A stretch of 64,000 nucleotides of DNA, from assembly GCF_032116555.1 (NCBI RefSeq), contig NZ_CP134949.1:2542001-2606000 (forward strand). Direction: 5' to 3'. The translations under genes and the position numbers were made by a program. Each line of letters opens with the position of its first letter. Within the stretch, counting starts at the first letter, position 1. Of this stretch, positions 9,535 to 21,441 are shown one piece after another. Under the pieces are notes generated by a model, which saw nothing but the letters and a program-made list of their open reading frames with translations, was not told where the DNA came from and made no database searches. The DNA comes from Halobaculum sp. XH14 (GTDB lineage Archaea > Halobacteriota > Halobacteria > Halobacteriales > Haloferacaceae).

Positions 9535-9701
9535 CCCGCCGCCGCCCGACGGTCGACCGGCCGGCCGCCCCCGTGGGCGAGGCGGACGCGCCGCTGGTTC
9601 CCGACCTCGGCCGTCCCGGCCGCGCCGGCGAACCCGGTCCCCGACCCCGCCGCCGACGAACCGACCCGTTCGAACTCGACCTCATGGAGGACGCCGAATG
9701 A
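9531..9701 (+). CDS. tiny ORF (56 aa), second of the aceA operon
   Basis: Begins [20 protein letters not shown] and ends [12 protein letters not shown]; overlaps both neighbours by ATGA (9531-9534 and 9698-9701). The composition is Pro/Arg-rich with an acidic tail, no cysteine and no membrane segment, so probably unstructured alone. The chain of two exact 4-base overlaps leading to isocitrate lyase favours genuine translation. No family recognised. Confidence 0.45.
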
Positions 9702-10735
9702 ACCCGACCGAACTCGACACCGACCCGTACATCCGCGACGTCGACAACCCGAAGGGCCGACAGCTGCGCGACATGCTCGACGAGCAGGAGTTCGTCTTCG
9801 CGCCCGGCCTGTATCACGCGCTGGACGCCCGCCTCGCCGAGATGGCGGGGCTCGACGCCGCCTACATGAGCGGCTACTCGACCGTGCTCGGCCAGTTCGG
9901 CTTCCCCGACCTGGAGATGGTGACGATGACCGAGATGGTCGAGAACGCGAAGCGCATCGTCGAGGCGACGTCGCTCCCGGTGATCGCCGACTGTGACACC
10001 GGCTACGGCGGCACCCACAACGTCCGCCGCGCCGTCCGCGAGTACGAGAAGGCCGGCGTCGCCGCCGTCCACATCGAGGACCAGACGACGCCCAAGCGCT
10101 GCGGGCACATCGCGGGCAAGCAGATCGTCTCCCGCGAGCAGGCCCGCTCCCGCTTCGAGGCGGCCGTCGACGCCAAGCAGAGCGAGGACACGGTCGTCAT
10201 CGCCCGCACGGACGCCTACGGCTCCGCCAACGGCGACTGGGAGGAACACCTCGAACGCGGCCGCATCTACGCCGACGCCGGCGTCGACATGGTCTGGCCC
10301 GAGATGCCCGACCCCTCGCGCGAGGACGCCGTCGAGTACGCCGAGACGATCCACGAGACCCACCCCGACCTCTCGCTCGCGTTCAACTACTCCTCGTCGT
10401 TCGCGTGGAGCGAGGAGGAGGACCCGCTCACGTTCGCGGAACTGGGCGACCTGGGCTACGAGTACATCTTCATCACGCTGTTCGGCCTCCACTCTGGCGC
10501 ACACAGCGTCTACGAGGACTTCTCGAAGCTGGCCGAGGCCGACGAGGAGGGCCAGTTCGATCTGGAGGAACGCTACCTCGGCCACGAGACCGAGAGCCAC
10601 CACGAACTCTCGTTCGTCGACCGCTTCCAGGACATCGAGACGCGGTTCGACCCCGAGGCCGAGGAGCGCATCGCCTCCTCGGAGGGGTTCAGCGAGGACC
10701 AGTCGGACCCCATCTCCTCGGAGACCGACGACTGA
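9698..10735 (+). CDS. aceA: isocitrate lyase
   Basis: A 345-residue enzyme of the ICL/PEP-mutase superfamily; it splits isocitrate into glyoxylate and succinate in the glyoxylate bypass, used for growth on acetate. The active-site motif is [11 protein letters not shown] with catalytic Cys135; also present are [11 protein letters not shown] (metal site), [11 protein letters not shown] and RTDAYG. At 345 residues it is of the short archaeal type. A methylisocitrate lyase would share the fold, but the KRCGH motif favours isocitrate lyase. No malate synthase gene is in the window, whereas in some haloarchaea aceB and aceA are adjacent. Instead it follows two tiny overlapping ORFs. Confidence 0.92.
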
Positions 10736-10867
10736 CCGGCCCGTTCGGCGGCGCGACCGCCGGAACCGGGACCGAACTCCGCGGCCGCCGTCCTCACACG
10801 CCGGGCCGCCGCGGCCACCCGCCCGGCGCATCACTTTACGGTGCCGCGGCCCGTATTTCTTCCACCG

Positions 10868-11542
10868 ATGAGCATCCTCGCCGAGTTCACGGTGCCGGCG
10901 GACGAGTTCGTCCTCGCGGACACGCTGACGGCGGCCCCGGGGATGCGGATCGAGATCAAGCGCGTCGTCGGGGGTGAGGCGTCCGTCACGCCGTACTTCT
11001 GGGCCGCCGACGGCGACTTCGGCAGGTTCGAGGACGCGCTCCGGGACGACGAGATGGTCCGGGAGGTGCTCACGCTCGAGGAGCACGACGACCCCGACGA
11101 GGGGCTCCAGCGGGAGGAGCGGTTCTACCGCGTGACCTGGGCGACGGACGTCCCCAACGTCATCGCCGCCGTCTCGGCCGCCAGGGCCACCGTCCTGGAG
11201 GCGGTCAGCGGCGACACCGGTCGCTGGGAGCTCCGCGTCCTCTTCCCGGCCGACGAGGCGCTCTCCGAGTTCTACGACTACTGTCTCGAGCACGGGTTCG
11301 ACGTCGAGCCGACCCGGGTGTACAGACCGGAGAACCCCGAGGAACGGGCCGAGTACGACGTGACCGCCGACCAGCAGGAGGCGCTGGAGGCGGCCTACCA
11401 CGCGGGCTACTTCGCCGTCCCGCGCGAGCGGACGCTGACCGACGTCGCGGCGGACCTGGACCTCTCGCGGAACGCCCTGTCGGCCCGCCTGCGCCGCGGC
11501 CACCGGAACCTCCTCGCCAACACCCTCATCCACGAGGAGTGA
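10868..11542 (+). CDS. HTH_10 (bacterio-opsin-activator type) transcription regulator
   Basis: A 224-residue protein. The N-terminal two thirds are the usual ligand- or signal-sensing fold of this haloarchaeal family (MSILAEFTVPADEFVLADTL, FPADEALSEFYDYCLEHG). The C-terminal HTH_10 helix-turn-helix covers about residues 172-218: LTADQQEALEAAYHAGYF-type start, VPRERTLTDVAADLDLSRNA, then LSARLRRGHRNLL. It lies directly downstream of aceA and in the same direction but with its own AT-rich stretch before the ATG. Regulation of aceA is possible but only positional. A second member is at 13928-14614. Confidence 0.9.
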   Translation: MSILAEFTVPADEFVLADTLTAAPGMRIEIKRVVGGEASVTPYFWAADGDFGRFEDALRDDEMVREVLTLEEHDDPDEGLQREERFYRVTWATDVPNVIAAVSAARATVLEAVSGDTGRWELRVLFPADEALSEFYDYCLEHGFDVEPTRVYRPENPEERAEYDVTADQQEALEAAYHAGYFAVPRERTLTDVAADLDLSRNALSARLRRGHRNLLANTLIHEE

Positions 11543-17219: not shown

Positions 17220-17738
17220 CTACCCGTCCGAGAACGGCGCTTCCATCGCGCCAACGTCCAGAACGACCTCGTCCGCGGTCTCCGCGACCGCCTCGACCGC
17301 GCCGACGACCACGAGCTTCGAGACGGGGGTCGGCCCGACGACGACCGGATCGCCGACCGCGAGCCCGTCGACGGCCTCCTGGAAGTGGATCCGCGCCCGG
17401 CAGCGGTCCGGCTCCCCGACGTCGATCAGGTCGATCGTGTCGACGGTCGCGCTGACGCGGTCGTGTTCGTGCGCGAGGACGAGCCGTTCGGGCTCCTCGA
17501 GGTCCTGATAGCTCAGGACGTCGTAGGCGGCCGCGGTCGGCTTGTAGCCGCCTTTCGGCCCGGGAATCCCCTCGATCAGCCCCAGCGCCTTCAGGCTCCG
17601 GAACTCGTTGCGGGTGCTCCCCGCGGTCCGGTCGAGGGCGTCCGCGATGATCTCCCCCTTCACGGGCGCGCTCTCGTACTCCTCGAGCAGCGTCGCGAGT
17701 ATCCGTCGCTGCGTCGCGCTCAGCTCCACCTGGCTCAT
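17220..17738 (-). CDS. winged-helix transcription regulator (Rrf2/MarR-like) with C-terminal domain
   Basis: A 172-residue protein starting MSQVELSATQRRILATLLEE. Residues 6-62 form a winged helix-turn-helix (VKGEIIADALDRTAGSTRNE, FRSLKALGLIEGIPGPKGGY), the wording typical of haloarchaeal Rrf2-family annotations; the rest is a beta-rich region (RCRARIHFQEAVDGLAVGDP) perhaps for ligand binding. A minus-strand cctataaatg at 17759-17768 sits at leaderless distance. Its ATG also overlaps the stop of a 45-residue ORF that follows the NadE-like gene, so it could be read both alone and as the end of that cluster. Confidence 0.82.
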   Translation of the reverse strand: MSQVELSATQRRILATLLEEYESAPVKGEIIADALDRTAGSTRNEFRSLKALGLIEGIPGPKGGYKPTAAAYDVLSYQDLEEPERLVLAHEHDRVSATVDTIDLIDVGEPDRCRARIHFQEAVDGLAVGDPVVVGPTPVSKLVVVGAVEAVAETADEVVLDVGAMEAPFSDG

Positions 17739-17872
17739 GCCGGGAATCGTCGGTGTCCACATTTATAGGTGTGGGAGGAGGACGGTTCTGTCCCCGACCG
17801 TGACGATTTCGACCGAACGTCGTCAAAGACGCGAAGATAGTCGTCGTTCGTGAACGTCGAGCGAGTAGTCAT
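17735..17872 (-). CDS. possible 45-residue ORF bridging the NadE-like and winged-helix genes
   Basis: MTTRSTFTNDDYLRVFDDVR starts an ORF that overlaps the upstream NadE-like stop by ATGA and the downstream regulator start by ATGA. The first 20 residues look like the start of a small haloarchaeal HTH protein; the second half (SSRSGTEPSSSHTYKCGHRR) looks degraded and covers the regulator's TATA box. It may be a truncated gene or a coupling ORF. Confidence 0.35.
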   Translation of the reverse strand: MTTRSTFTNDDYLRVFDDVRSKSSRSGTEPSSSHTYKCGHRRFPA

Positions 17873-18732
17873 CCGGAAGTCGCCTCGTTTCGGTCGGGAC
17901 GTGCGGGACGACGCCGCTTGTGGCGGGTGCCCGCGTGCCGGCCGGCGAGGTGTTCGACCAGTTCCGCGTCGACGCCGAGCGCGTCCGCGGTGCCCTCGAC
18001 GGTCCGACCGTCCTCGATCGCCAGCGCGAGGACGCGATCGACCGTCTCGGCGGGGACGTCCCGGGTCGGTTCGTCCGCGAACCCGCCCCACCGATCCGGT
18101 CCCGCGGATGGTTCGATCACGAACTCGGGCACGTCGAGGTGGGCCGCGAGCGCCCGAACCTCCGTCTCGAACAGGTGGCCGAGCGGGAGCAGGTCGGCCG
18201 CGCCGTCGCCGTGTTTCGTCCAGTCGCCGAGCAGCCGGTCGGTACGCGTCGTCGACCCGACGACGAGTCGGCGGGTCGCGTTCGCCAGGAAGTACGCGCA
18301 GGTCATCCGGAGCCGGGCGACCACGTTCATCGTCGTGACCGTGTCCGCGGCGGGGGCCAGTTCGCCGCCGACGGTCTCCCGGAAGCCGGCGAGGAGCCTG
18401 TGGAGCTGAACCCGCGTCGCGTCGACGCCGAGCAGGTCGGCGACCGCCTCGGCGTCCCGGGCGTTCGCCTCGCTGCCGAGGGTGCAGGGCAACACCAGCC
18501 CGTGGACGTCGTCGGCTCCGAGCGCGTCGACCGCGACGGCGGCGGTCACCGTCGAGTCCACGTCGCCGCGGAGCCGGACCACGACGCCGTTCGCGCCGCT
18601 CTCGTCCACGACGCTCCGCACGAACGAGGTCGCTCGCTCGTGTGTCGACGCCAGCCGTTCCGGGTCCGTTCGCAGCGCCCGCCGTGGCTCGCTCCGGCCG
18701 GCGTCGGCCCCGCTCGTCTCGGTGCCCGTCAC
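17869..18732 (-). CDS. NAD synthetase-like protein with altered PP-loop
   Basis: A 287-residue protein of the NH3-dependent NadE family, which amidates deamido-NAD using ATP. The overall order is conserved: PP-loop region (residues 50-60), DAEAVADLLGV, GSTTRTDRLLGDWTKHGDGA and ADLLPLGHLFETEVRALAAH. However the ATP-gripping SGGxDS motif reads RGDVDS (residues 55-60); Ser to Arg and Gly to Asp could each arise by one base change. The usual Asn-x-Ser-Glu after the GT motif is also changed (TRTD). It is probably a divergent or catalytically changed paralogue. The GTG start at 18732 overlaps the upstream zinc-finger gene (GTGA). Confidence 0.78.
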   Translation of the reverse strand: MTGTETSGADAGRSEPRRALRTDPERLASTHERATSFVRSVVDESGANGVVVRLRGDVDSTVTAAVAVDALGADDVHGLVLPCTLGSEANARDAEAVADLLGVDATRVQLHRLLAGFRETVGGELAPAADTVTTMNVVARLRMTCAYFLANATRRLVVGSTTRTDRLLGDWTKHGDGAADLLPLGHLFETEVRALAAHLDVPEFVIEPSAGPDRWGGFADEPTRDVPAETVDRVLALAIEDGRTVEGTADALGVDAELVEHLAGRHAGTRHKRRRPARPDRNEATSG

Positions 18733-18905
18733 CCGCTCCAGTCTCCCTGAATGTCGTCGCCGATCCGATCCCGCCAGACCCCGAAGCGGGACTCGCAGTC
18801 GGGCGTCTCGTCGATGTGGTCGACGAACCCCGCCCCCGGCGACGGCAGCTGTTCGCCACAGAACGGGCAGCTGTTCGGGTCGGTCCACGTCTCGGTCGCT
18901 GACAT
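18729..18905 (-). CDS. small zinc-finger protein (58 aa, DUF7501-like)
   Basis: A 58-residue protein: an N-terminal CPFCGEQLPSPGAGFVDHID places two cysteines and a histidine, with a further cysteine in TPDCESRF, together a likely C2HC zinc site; the tail is RFGVWRDRIGDDIQGDWSG. A minus-strand gtttaatg about 27 bases upstream fits a leaderless start at 18905. Its TGA overlaps the GTG of the NadE-like gene, so it is probably the first cistron of that operon. Confidence 0.75.
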   Translation of the reverse strand: MSATETWTDPNSCPFCGEQLPSPGAGFVDHIDETPDCESRFGVWRDRIGDDIQGDWSG

Positions 18906-19140
18906 GGGAGACGATGGCGTCCGAGACGCATTAAACGTTGCCGGAGAACAACACAAACGGACTAATATTCCTTTTATCCATATCCGAACGTCACGCCGGT
19001 TCGCGTAATAACGAAGGAACACCCATTATTTATCGCTCAGGTGGACGGGCGGACAAGCCGGGTCGACACACCGGCCGACGAACTGGACGCCCGTCCGGAG
19101 CCGTCGGGAGGACCCGGGGTGAACCGGCGTGACGCGACGG

Positions 19141-19977
19141 TCACTCGGGCGGGCCGTCCCACTCCTCGCCCGCGTCGCGGGGGTCGTAGCCCACGGTCTC
19201 GCGGGCGTACGCCAGGTCGTCGAGCCAGCGGCGCTCGTTCGCGCTCACCCCGTAGAAGTGGTCCCACTCGACCGACTCGTCCTGCAGACAGCAGTCGACC
19301 ATGTGGGCCACGTCGCGGCGGGACTGCCAGAGCCCCTTCAGGCGGGCGACCTGCTCGTCGTACGCCTCGCTGCCCCGCTCCCAGTCGCCCCGGTCGACGC
19401 CCCGTTCGGCGTCGCCGTACGGGTGGTCGTACTCGGGCGGCTTCACGGAGCCGAGCCGGAGCCCGTAGAACCTGATCCCGTGCGCTTGGGCGGCCAGCCT
19501 GCCCAGGTCCTCGCCGTAGCTCTTCGTCAGCCCGTAGCGGGAGTCGGGTCGGTGCGGTTCGTCGTGGCCGGCCAGCACCTCGCCGTCGTGATAGACGTCG
19601 GGGGCGTTCCGGACCTCGACCATCCCGACGGCGTGATTCGAGGAGGCGAACACGAGCGAGTCGAGGTCGGCGTCGACGGCGGTCTCGGTGACGTTGTGGA
19701 GCGCCTCGAGGTTGTCCGCGAGCGGCTCGGACCAGCCGAGTTCGCGTGACCACGCCCCGCCGGTGCCCGGAACCAGCGCGAGGTGGACCACGGCGTCCTT
19801 GCCCTCGAAGTGCGGGCGAACCTCGTCGTACTCGCGCACGTCGGCGACGACGGTCTCGCCGGGACCGTCGCCGGGTTCGACGTCGAGCAGCGTGAACTCG
19901 TAGCGCGCGTCGTCGCCGAGGTAGTCGGTGATGGCGGTGCCGACGACGCCGTGCGCGCCGGTGATGAGGACGTCCAT
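19141..19977 (-). CDS. NAD-dependent extended SDR (epimerase/Azf-like dehydrogenase)
   Basis: A 278-residue extended short-chain dehydrogenase. The Rossmann glycine motif is VLITGAHGVVGTAI at the very N-terminus; DAVVHLALVPG, LVFASSNHAVGMVE and the catalytic SRYGLTKSYGE (Tyr-x-x-x-Lys) follow. The sequence order resembles the haloarchaeal NAD-dependent glucose-6-phosphate dehydrogenase (Azf) and uronate-dehydrogenase group (SSNHAVG is shared), but identity looks moderate and it carries an extra acidic/charged segment near residues 190-215. Substrate is therefore uncertain. It is transcribed alone. Confidence 0.82.
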   Translation of the reverse strand: MDVLITGAHGVVGTAITDYLGDDARYEFTLLDVEPGDGPGETVVADVREYDEVRPHFEGKDAVVHLALVPGTGGAWSRELGWSEPLADNLEALHNVTETAVDADLDSLVFASSNHAVGMVEVRNAPDVYHDGEVLAGHDEPHRPDSRYGLTKSYGEDLGRLAAQAHGIRFYGLRLGSVKPPEYDHPYGDAERGVDRGDWERGSEAYDEQVARLKGLWQSRRDVAHMVDCCLQDESVEWDHFYGVSANERRWLDDLAYARETVGYDPRDAGEEWDGPPE

Positions 19978-20343: not shown

Positions 20344-20799
20344 CTACTCGCGCTCGTACTCCTTCTTGAACCCGCGGAACTCCGTCCGGTGGGCCTCCTC
20401 GTCGGCGAGCACCGTCACGCCGAGGTCCTCGGTCACCGGGTCGTCCGCCTCCCTGGCGGCCTCGATGAGCGACTTGTACGTCGAGATGGCGTCCTCCTCG
20501 GCGTCGAGCACGCCGTTGATGACCGCGAGCACGTCCGTCGTGTCCGCGGGCGGCTGGAGGCTGTGCTGGTTGGCCGTGAACTCCGCCGACCCGGGGGGGC
20601 GCGCGTCGAGCTGTTTGAGACGCTGACCGATCCGTTCGGCGTGCCCGAGCTCCTCCTGGACGTCGGCCTTGAGGCTCTCCTTGATCTCCTCGGCGCTCAC
20701 GCCCTCGAGGACGATGGCGTTCGCCTGGTAGTTCATCACCGTCTCCATCTCGTCGCCGTACGCCTTCCGGAGCAGTTCGATGACGCGGTCGCTGGACAT
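20344..20799 (-). CDS. ferritin-like (rubrerythrin/bacterioferritin-type) protein
   Basis: A 151-residue four-helix protein. Potential di-iron ligands sit in the helices: YGDEMETVMNYQAN, VQEELGHAERIGQ (ExxH), LDAEEDAISTYKSLIEAA and LADEEAHRTEF (ExxH). The spacing fits the ferritin-like superfamily; whether it stores iron, acts as a peroxidase or is a Dps-like protector cannot be told. No cysteine-type rubredoxin tail is present. Gene length is typical of the short archaeal members and it appears to be monocistronic. Confidence 0.82.
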   Translation of the reverse strand: MSSDRVIELLRKAYGDEMETVMNYQANAIVLEGVSAEEIKESLKADVQEELGHAERIGQRLKQLDARPPGSAEFTANQHSLQPPADTTDVLAVINGVLDAEEDAISTYKSLIEAAREADDPVTEDLGVTVLADEEAHRTEFRGFKKEYERE

Positions 20800-20889
20800 G
20801 ACGGTTCGACGTTCGGCCGCGAAGGGGAAATAGCTACTCGCCGCGTGCGCCGGGGTGGCCCGTCCGCGACTCGGCGGAGCGCCCGCGAC

Positions 20890-21411
20890 TCAGCGGACCG
20901 TCCGCGAGCAGGTGCCACAGAGGTTCTCCTCCTTCACGTCGACCTCGCGCACCGTCGGGGAGAAGCTCATCACGCACTTGTTGTTGTCACAGTGTTCCAG
21001 CCCGAGCGTGTGGCCGATCTCGTGGACGATCTCCTTGCGGACGCGGTCCGAGAACACCTCGCCGGAGGGCTTCGAGGAGATGCCGCCGTCCGAGGAGGTC
21101 TGCAGTCGGTAGGTGGAGATGACCGAGCCGTTGCCGTTGAGGTAGGCGAGCCCGAACACGTAGTTGCGCCGCCGGTAGTAGAGGTCCTCCGAGGTGATGC
21201 CGATGTTCTTCTCGCCCTCGCCGACCCGGGAGACGAGCTCGATGAACTGCTCGGCCCGGTACTGGCTCCGGCTGCGGTCGTACGCGCCCTCGGGGATGGT
21301 CTGCTCGTCGTGTACGGACACCTCGCAGTCGTACACGGAACGGAGCGCCGCCGACGCCTCCCGCTTTTCCTCGGCGGAGACGTCCCCCACGGGCACGATG
21401 TCGACGAGCAT
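20890..21411 (-). CDS. amzA: archaemetzincin zinc metalloprotease
   Basis: A 173-residue archaemetzincin. The signature EIVHEIGHTLGLEHC supplies the three zinc-binding histidines (His130, His134, His140) and Glu131, followed by a four-cysteine set (Cys141, Cys146, Cys165, Cys168) that binds a second zinc; the Met-turn methionine is in KCVMSFSP. I chose MLVDIVPVGDV (21411) rather than an ATG at 21438, because the former is the common archaeal N-terminus and a TATA-like cttatg lies 25-30 bases upstream of it. It is divergent from the UPF0146 gene. Physiological substrates of archaeal members are unknown. Confidence 0.9.
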   Translation of the reverse strand: MLVDIVPVGDVSAEEKREASAALRSVYDCEVSVHDEQTIPEGAYDRSRSQYRAEQFIELVSRVGEGEKNIGITSEDLYYRRRNYVFGLAYLNGNGSVISTYRLQTSSDGGISSKPSGEVFSDRVRKEIVHEIGHTLGLEHCDNNKCVMSFSPTVREVDVKEENLCGTCSRTVR

Positions 21412-21417
21412 GAACTG

Positions 21418-21441
21418 GTTTATGCGTGGCCCCTCCATAAG
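21418..21441. promoter_or_regulatory. overlapping divergent TATA-like boxes
   Basis: tttatg at about 21420-21425 fits a plus-strand leaderless promoter for the GTG at 21452, and cttatg on the minus strand at about 21436-21441 fits the archaemetzincin ATG at 21411. The two promoters overlap within 24 bases, so the genes may exclude each other's transcription. Confidence 0.45.

Follow-up and report, generated by a model that had tools for sequence, protein, structure and literature searches.

The locus examined here raises the question of whether a protein with the family features of an NAD synthetase, but with an altered ATP-binding loop, can still make NAD, and what it might do otherwise. Cells depend on NAD synthesis, and when an indispensable enzyme has a catalytically dead paralogue, the latter is often a regulator. 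The window, i.e., the whole stretch of 64,000 nucleotides from Halobaculum sp. XH14 that was analysed, carries the gene and its two altered sites on the minus strand:

17869..18732, minus strand: NadE-like paralogue of 287 aa, read from a GTG at 18732 to a stop codon that ends at 17869
18553..18570, minus strand: altered PP-loop, with RGDVDS at residues 55-60 in place of the expected SGGxDS; codons CGC GGC GAC GTG GAC TCG
18238..18252, minus strand: altered N-x-S-E, reading TTRTD, residues 161-165

Results

Fold of the NadE-like protein

The open reading frame given in the original prediction was recovered with exactly the same coordinates, on the minus strand and with 287 codons for amino acids. 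Its product carries a full-length NAD_synthase domain, with PF02540 matching at E 2.2e-50 and 171.5 bits (cut-off 21), residues 32-276 against positions 3-242 of the 242 in the profile. The TIGR00552 model was also passed (150.7 bits, cut-off 63.65), while the score for the NAD+ synthase equivalog NF010587 was under its cut-off (201.1 against 255). The top solved relative was 2e18_A, the NH3-dependent NAD synthetase of Pyrococcus horikoshii (E 7.1e-32).

An AlphaFold model built from 28 aligned rows reached a mean pLDDT of 84.0 and a pTM of 0.83. Superposition on 2e18_A gave a VIA-align Z of 29.6 over 255 residues (rmsd 3.4), and Foldseek returned E 1.7e-16. Low confidence was seen at both termini and in residues 211-220 (block mean 51), which lie within the P2-loop region. 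Because the Pfam, solved-structure and AlphaFold/Foldseek matches agree, the product is modelled as having the NadE fold, and the earlier claim that the fold is retained was borne out by the PF02540 match over nearly the whole profile and by the model match to 2e18_A.

Altered and conserved sites

For the evaluation of individual residues, 105 NadE-family domains from the fetched loci were aligned; after removal of two out-of-frame matches (L021 and L028), 103 rows were left, a set biased towards the kin of the NadE-like protein, as the searches were ranked by similarity to it. The SGGxDS loop was kept in 84 of the 103 domains and was missing from 19. A column was considered conserved when it reached at least 93% among the 84 SGGxDS relatives, which gave 60 such columns.

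The broken PP-loop, RGDVDS in place of SGGxDS, was confirmed by reading the codons directly. Each of the two changes is one base away from the codon of a relative, as had been proposed, namely AGC to CGC at the first position and GGC (in the sister species) to GAC at the third; among the four SGGLDS relatives read, the first loop codon was AGC in three and AGT in one. The alteration of the later Asn-x-Ser-Glu, now T-x-T-D within TTRTD, was likewise found as described, and the N and E columns of this motif were conserved in 84/84 SGGxDS relatives.

In total, the NadE-like protein was changed at 14 of the 60 conserved columns. These were S55 and G57 in the PP-loop, G135, T160, N162, E165, Y170, Y188 and K189, and, in or near the P2 loop, K208, A212, Q218, G225 and Y228. 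In Bacillus subtilis numbering, taken from the 1ee1 chain, the changed equivalents include S46, G48, T157, E162, F167 and K186 (the K186 equivalent being E), while N133, R137, R139, Y144, K170, D173, D177, H257 and K258 were kept. We take the changed group to serve ATP and Mg and the kept group to serve NaAD at the dimer interface; the Glu of N-x-S-E is presumably Mg-binding, and the Y/F167 equivalent, which is lost in the NadE-like protein, is assumed to stack on the nicotinate. The columns of S46, G48, K186 and five P2-loop equivalents were each kept in at least 80 of the 84 SGGxDS relatives.

When the columns were grouped post hoc by these presumed roles, 10/14 of the ATP/P2 columns were changed against 0/11 of the dinucleotide/dimer columns (Fisher p 0.0005). 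With column 170 (F167) counted as a dinucleotide column, the same post hoc comparison gave 10/14 against 1/12 (p 0.0017). In the first of the two groupings, changed columns 135, 162, 170 and 188 lie outside both sets. Because the loop retains D59 and S60, and E165D is a conservative replacement, some ATP binding is conceivable. PMC6946656 describes the NaAD site at the dimer interface, with a His and a Tyr of the human enzyme contacting NaAD, and a P2 loop that shuts over the ATP site.

Intact NadE in the same genome

The search for a canonical NadE elsewhere in the genome, suggested in the original prediction, was successful. An intact gene lies at G000:C1:492318-493094, with SGGIDS, GNRSE and a Pfam E of 1.6e-82, and judging from these motifs it is probably the enzyme that makes NAD. 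The NadE-like protein thus combines the features of a dead paralogue: the fold is kept, catalytic residues are lost, and a paralogue of the active type is present. The pattern extended to other genomes, as another NadE of at least 244 bits was found in 40/40 genomes (38 carrying an LDG-type gene, described below, or the NadE-like gene, plus G195 and G196). This other NadE was read in 30 of the 40, and all 30 had both SGGxDS and N-[KR]-[ST]-E.

Orthologues within the genus

The genus sample comprised three species, the source genome, G196 and G195. The G196 orthologue (L043) was 71% identical, with an RGGLDS loop and VTRTD. In G195, the protein search reported the intact NadE alone, and the NadE-like locus was located via the neighbouring regulator. 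It contains a frameshifted remnant (L134:7817-8290, G195:C1) that has also lost a large internal segment and whose start and end align to the NadE-like protein; the frames of DUF7501 and of the regulator are open on either side. The remnant loop begins with Arg-Gly, and the rest of it is not readable in one frame. As for the origin of the deletion, the direct repeats listed in the two intact genes were all imperfect (73-83%).

The replacement of Ser by Arg at the first loop position was therefore common to 3/3 genus members, and orthologues uniformly carrying SGGxDS, the finding that would have spoken for a strain-specific mutation, were not what was observed. The loop as a whole was less constant, being RGGLDS in G196 and a remnant in G195. 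Because the first change is general and the loops differ, RGDVDS is neither a peculiarity of one strain nor a loop under strict conservation. A sequencing slip or strain-specific error was rejected as well, since the frame is open and the 71%-identical sister shares both the Arg and T-x-T-D.

The dN/dS of the NadE-like gene against its G196 orthologue was 0.353 (bootstrap 0.252-0.478), close to the 0.310 (0.209-0.466) obtained when the intact NadE genes of these two species were compared; the neighbouring genes gave 0.24 (DUF7501), 0.33 (thioesterase-like gene) and 0.69 (regulator). The value of 0.353 points to purifying selection over much of the divergence from G196, as a whole-branch average that cannot date a loss of function and whose signal could predate it. 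The gene is weakly held in the genus, having decayed in one of the three species.

The LDG family across the order

A profile of 13 rows (the NadE-like protein, its sister and 11 rows with an LDG loop) served to search 392 genomes of the order, a sample from a larger group; the scores of the 13 profile rows themselves follow from its construction. Scores of at least 379 bits were obtained in 36 genomes, including the source genome, itself a profile row, and two more genomes had matches of the same kind at 314 and 303 bits. LDG-type NadE-like genes, in which LDGx[VIL][EGA]x replaces SGGxDS, were thus present in at least 37/392 genomes. This is a lower bound, because no gap separates the scores (the last LDG sequence at 303 bits, the next match, with SGGxDS, at 300 bits) and the lower matches were mostly unread. 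The 37 LDG sequences fall in groups f4 and f7. In a phylum sample of 294 genomes, of which an unstated share lies outside the order, the kind was found in six, the source genome included, all within the order.

In all 37 LDG sequences, Asp stood for the first Ser and the C-terminal HKR was kept; the loop Asp was replaced by E in 29, G in four and A in four. Among the 14 LDG rows of the alignment, many of the same columns were lost as in the NadE-like protein, and N136, R140, R142, Y147, N151, K173, D180, H271, K272 and R273 were kept in 14/14. The D176 column was E in 10/14. Given this and the loss of the Y/F167 equivalent, the NaAD site of the NadE-like proteins is not wholly intact. The family evolves under purifying selection, with dN/dS values of 0.11-0.45 in 12 pairs, all below one; for the six g30 pairs the range was 0.11-0.16. 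The NadE-like protein of the window does not carry the LDG-x-[VIL]-[EGA]-x motif and reads LRGDVDS.

Two LDG-type genes are annotated as nadE, NAD(+) synthase, both with the loop LDGSIES: HAH_RS18880 on Haloarcula hispanica plasmid pHH400 and RR_RS03280 on H. marismortui plasmid pNG700. Named records such as these indicate that the order sampled is that of the haloarchaea.

Recurrence of loop changes

Trees were built without the PP-loop and N-x-S-E columns, from thinned subsets of 84, 72 and 69 rows. A single origin of all broken loops was rejected when the 15 broken rows were held together (p-AU 1.9e-5). The starred branches force four loop state changes in two trees (84 and 72 rows) and three in the third (69 rows, with the second domain of L090 omitted). 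The state changes are taken here as losses of the loop, although their counts alone cannot separate loss from regain.

In the more carefully built trees, the NadE-like gene and its sister were placed beside the LDG clade without firm support (82/59 and 88/30); the quick tree set them apart from it. The alternative placement with g2-type relatives was not rejected (p-AU 0.17). On these alignments the gene appears related to the LDG family, and common descent of the loop loss is a candidate only. Single broken rows were found elsewhere in L080 (DGGVES), in L103 (GGGLDS) and in the L090 fusion gene, whose second domain reads GAGVDA.

Neighbouring genes

The genes around the NadE-like gene and a putative promoter element are as follows:

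18729..18905, minus strand: DUF7501, a small CxxC zinc-finger-like protein of 58 aa (PF24333, E 4.2e-29)
18930..18936, minus strand: TATA-like GTTTAAT, a candidate promoter some 30 bp ahead of the ATG of DUF7501
17220..17762, minus strand: winged-helix regulator, HrcA_DNA-bdg (PF03444, E 3.9e-25)

An operon with a zinc-finger protein and a regulator had been proposed, of which only the zinc-finger part stood. The stop of DUF7501 overlaps the start of the NadE-like gene in GTGA, as read directly, and the TATA-like box was placed by the haloarchaeal promoter rule; the spacing of GTTTAAT together with the overlap fits a leaderless two-gene transcript of DUF7501 and the NadE-like gene. For the regulator, ATG 17738 (MSQ) is a start codon also present in G195. 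The gene lies 110 bp downstream of the NadE-like gene and has a separate TATA-like element, TATAAA, 29 bp ahead of this ATG. A promoter and terminator scan found nothing, its consensus being bacterial, and neither tRNA nor Rfam matches were obtained in the window.

In 3/3 genus members, DUF7501 lies next to the NadE-like gene or, in G195, to what remains of it. DUF7501 was found in 43/99 order genomes (E 0.001), and no NadE-like matches occurred near the other DUF7501 genes in six loci (L144, L183-L187; 1.5-4 kb on each side). DUF7501 was therefore rejected as a general partner of the NadE-like protein, being widespread and seen paired with it in the genus only, and the pairing looks local to the genus.

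Relatives of the regulator occurred in 168/170 family genomes, so a NadE-specific regulator was rejected and only adjacency is informative. A PF03444-type regulator adjoined a NadE paralogue in 27/29 g2-type loci (genera g2, g3 and g74; divergent), in L103 (divergent) and, in convergent orientation, in the two g9 fusion loci. It was located downstream on the same strand in 3/3 genus members and 71-77 bp downstream in 3/3 DGRVGS loci. Beside the other LDG genes it was found in 0/11 loci, within flanks of 1.5-3 kb. This pattern therefore links the regulator to some NadE paralogues, intact or broken, and not to the broken loop. The link is probably older than that of DUF7501, because the regulator adjoins several other NadE paralogues. 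The regulator apart, no metabolic neighbours conserved across lineages were seen in the loci read.

Several further observations were made in the window. A relative of Azf (NAD-dependent dehydrogenase; 153/400 bits, below the model cut-off) lies upstream of DUF7501 at 19141-19977 and was unmatched in the sister loci searched. A gene of the isocitrate lyase/PEP mutase family followed by a BAT-HTH_10 regulator was located at 9698-11542, and a ferritin-like protein beside an M54 metallopeptidase at 20344-21438.

NadE paralogues in other contexts

In L299 (Haladaptatus pallidirubidus plasmid, NZ_CP085302.1), noted along with L112 and L118, amt and a PII gene are followed by a two-domain NadE fusion and one more NadE-like gene, annotated there as 7-cyano-7-deazaguanine synthase. 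This arrangement suggests that NadE paralogues are tied to ammonium supply. Tandem NadE fusions beside a PF03444-type regulator were found in L090 and L106, the second domain in L090 being the one with GAGVDA. In L113 and L080, a NadE paralogue adjoins a putative E1-like gene, presumably of ThiF/UbaA type, the loop being intact once and broken once. The DGRVGS-type copy lay 5.9-6.6 kb from a high-scoring NadE in 3/3 genomes (G059:C1, G103:C2 and G172:C1).

Searches of other records and of the literature

A genome-contig scan returned two Bradyrhizobium loci only, and among phage records 11 had a match, none of which covered 80% of the query. In the open-access literature, no paper on a degenerate NadE in haloarchaea was found by title or abstract start, and no paper on DUF7501 was found. 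PMC8305020 has a passage on NAD biosynthesis and no occurrence of NadE.

Discussion

The reading preferred here, to which we give an even chance, is that the gene encodes a NadE-fold pseudoenzyme without efficient NAD synthesis, which perhaps binds NAD or NaAD or regulates a partner. With the ATP-pyrophosphatase loop, the Mg/ATP positions and the P2 loop altered, the protein would not make NAD at a useful rate, and NAD would be supplied by the other, intact NadE. The loss of NAD synthesis suggested originally is in agreement with the changed PP-loop and the changed E162, K186 and P2-loop equivalents, and with the other high-scoring NadE found in every one of the 40 genomes. A published S48N change in the SGGXDST motif of Salmonella NadE raised the Km for ammonia about 70-fold and left the enzyme active (PMC3376133); it illustrates the cost of a damaged loop and also makes residual NAD synthesis conceivable. 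Through its kept dimer and dinucleotide face, the protein might bind NaAD or NAD, or a nucleotide like them, or it might form mixed dimers with an active NadE; in either case it would act as a sensor or regulator, which is a guess. A regulatory role, by analogy, is possible. The adenylating role offered beside it is disfavoured, because the ATP side is the altered one.

The main rival, which we consider a real possibility though a less probable one, holds that a redundant extra NadE is becoming a pseudogene: the ATP site has failed and the gene drifts without present function. The frameshifted and deleted G195 copy between an intact DUF7501 and regulator fits this, as do the variation of the loop among genus members and the persistence of the neighbours without the NadE-like gene. 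Drift alone is harder to reconcile with a dN/dS of 0.35 (0.25-0.48) against the sister and with frames that stay open in two species whose proteins are 71% identical, and it would not be expected to concentrate the changes on the ATP side.

A still-active enzyme of altered chemistry or substrate, either a slow synthetase or a ligase of another carboxylate or nucleotide, appears improbable. The loop Asp and Ser are kept and the Mg-ligand change from E to D is conservative, and the solved structure 3fiu is that of a NadE relative bearing the title NMN synthetase; against it, the equivalents of S46, G48, K186 and five P2-loop residues are all changed together. That the loop codons reflect an error of sequencing or assembly has next to no probability, as the Ser-to-Arg change is common to the sister species and the remnant, and the other changed columns show the same pattern.

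Beyond the pseudoenzyme reading of this one gene, it is a speculative and rather unlikely proposal that surplus NadE copies were recruited repeatedly in haloarchaea as regulators that bind NAD or NaAD without catalysis. They would make up an unrecognised family of NadE-fold sensors or regulatory subunits, present in about one-tenth of the species sampled, filed as NAD synthase and in some cases accompanied by a winged-helix regulator, and the NadE-like gene would be an early version or a side branch of it. The larger finding is that NadE paralogues of the order have lost the ATP loop repeatedly; the NadE-like gene on its own is of moderate interest. The automatic label 'NAD(+) synthase' is doubtful for LDG-type genes (37/392 order genomes, two labelled so in the records). 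If NAD or NaAD sensing were true, it would offer a handle on archaeal control of NAD pools.

Comparison with known systems

The closest known system is NadE itself (2e18 of P. horikoshii and 1ee1 of B. subtilis), with which the NadE-like protein shares the whole predicted fold and the equivalents of R137, Y144, D173, D177 and H257. It differs in the replacement of SGGxDS by RGDVDS and of N-x-S-E by T-x-T-D, in the K186 to E change, in the altered P2 loop and in its score below the NF010587 cut-off.

A NadE paralogue of Francisella has been described as an NMN synthetase. The Francisella tularensis structure 3fiu, so named in its PDB title, is a likeness in that a NadE fold serves another named role; unlike the NadE-like protein, 3fiu keeps its PP-loop intact in the alignment. 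Control of bacterial NadE through PII, described in PMC7196632, lends some plausibility to the guess of a sensor or partner role.

Dead paralogues of the prozyme type are retained beside the active enzyme in trypanosomatids (AdoMetDC and deoxyhypusine synthase), with partner activation reported (PMC5201418, PMC3663545). These are other enzymes, and partner activation is only a guess for the NadE-like protein, one to which they add some precedent. LDG-type proteins resemble the NadE-like protein in that the PP-loop is lost, most dinucleotide-side columns are kept and the genome encodes a further high-scoring NadE, and they differ from it in the loop, which is LDGx[VIL][EGA]x instead of RGDVDS.
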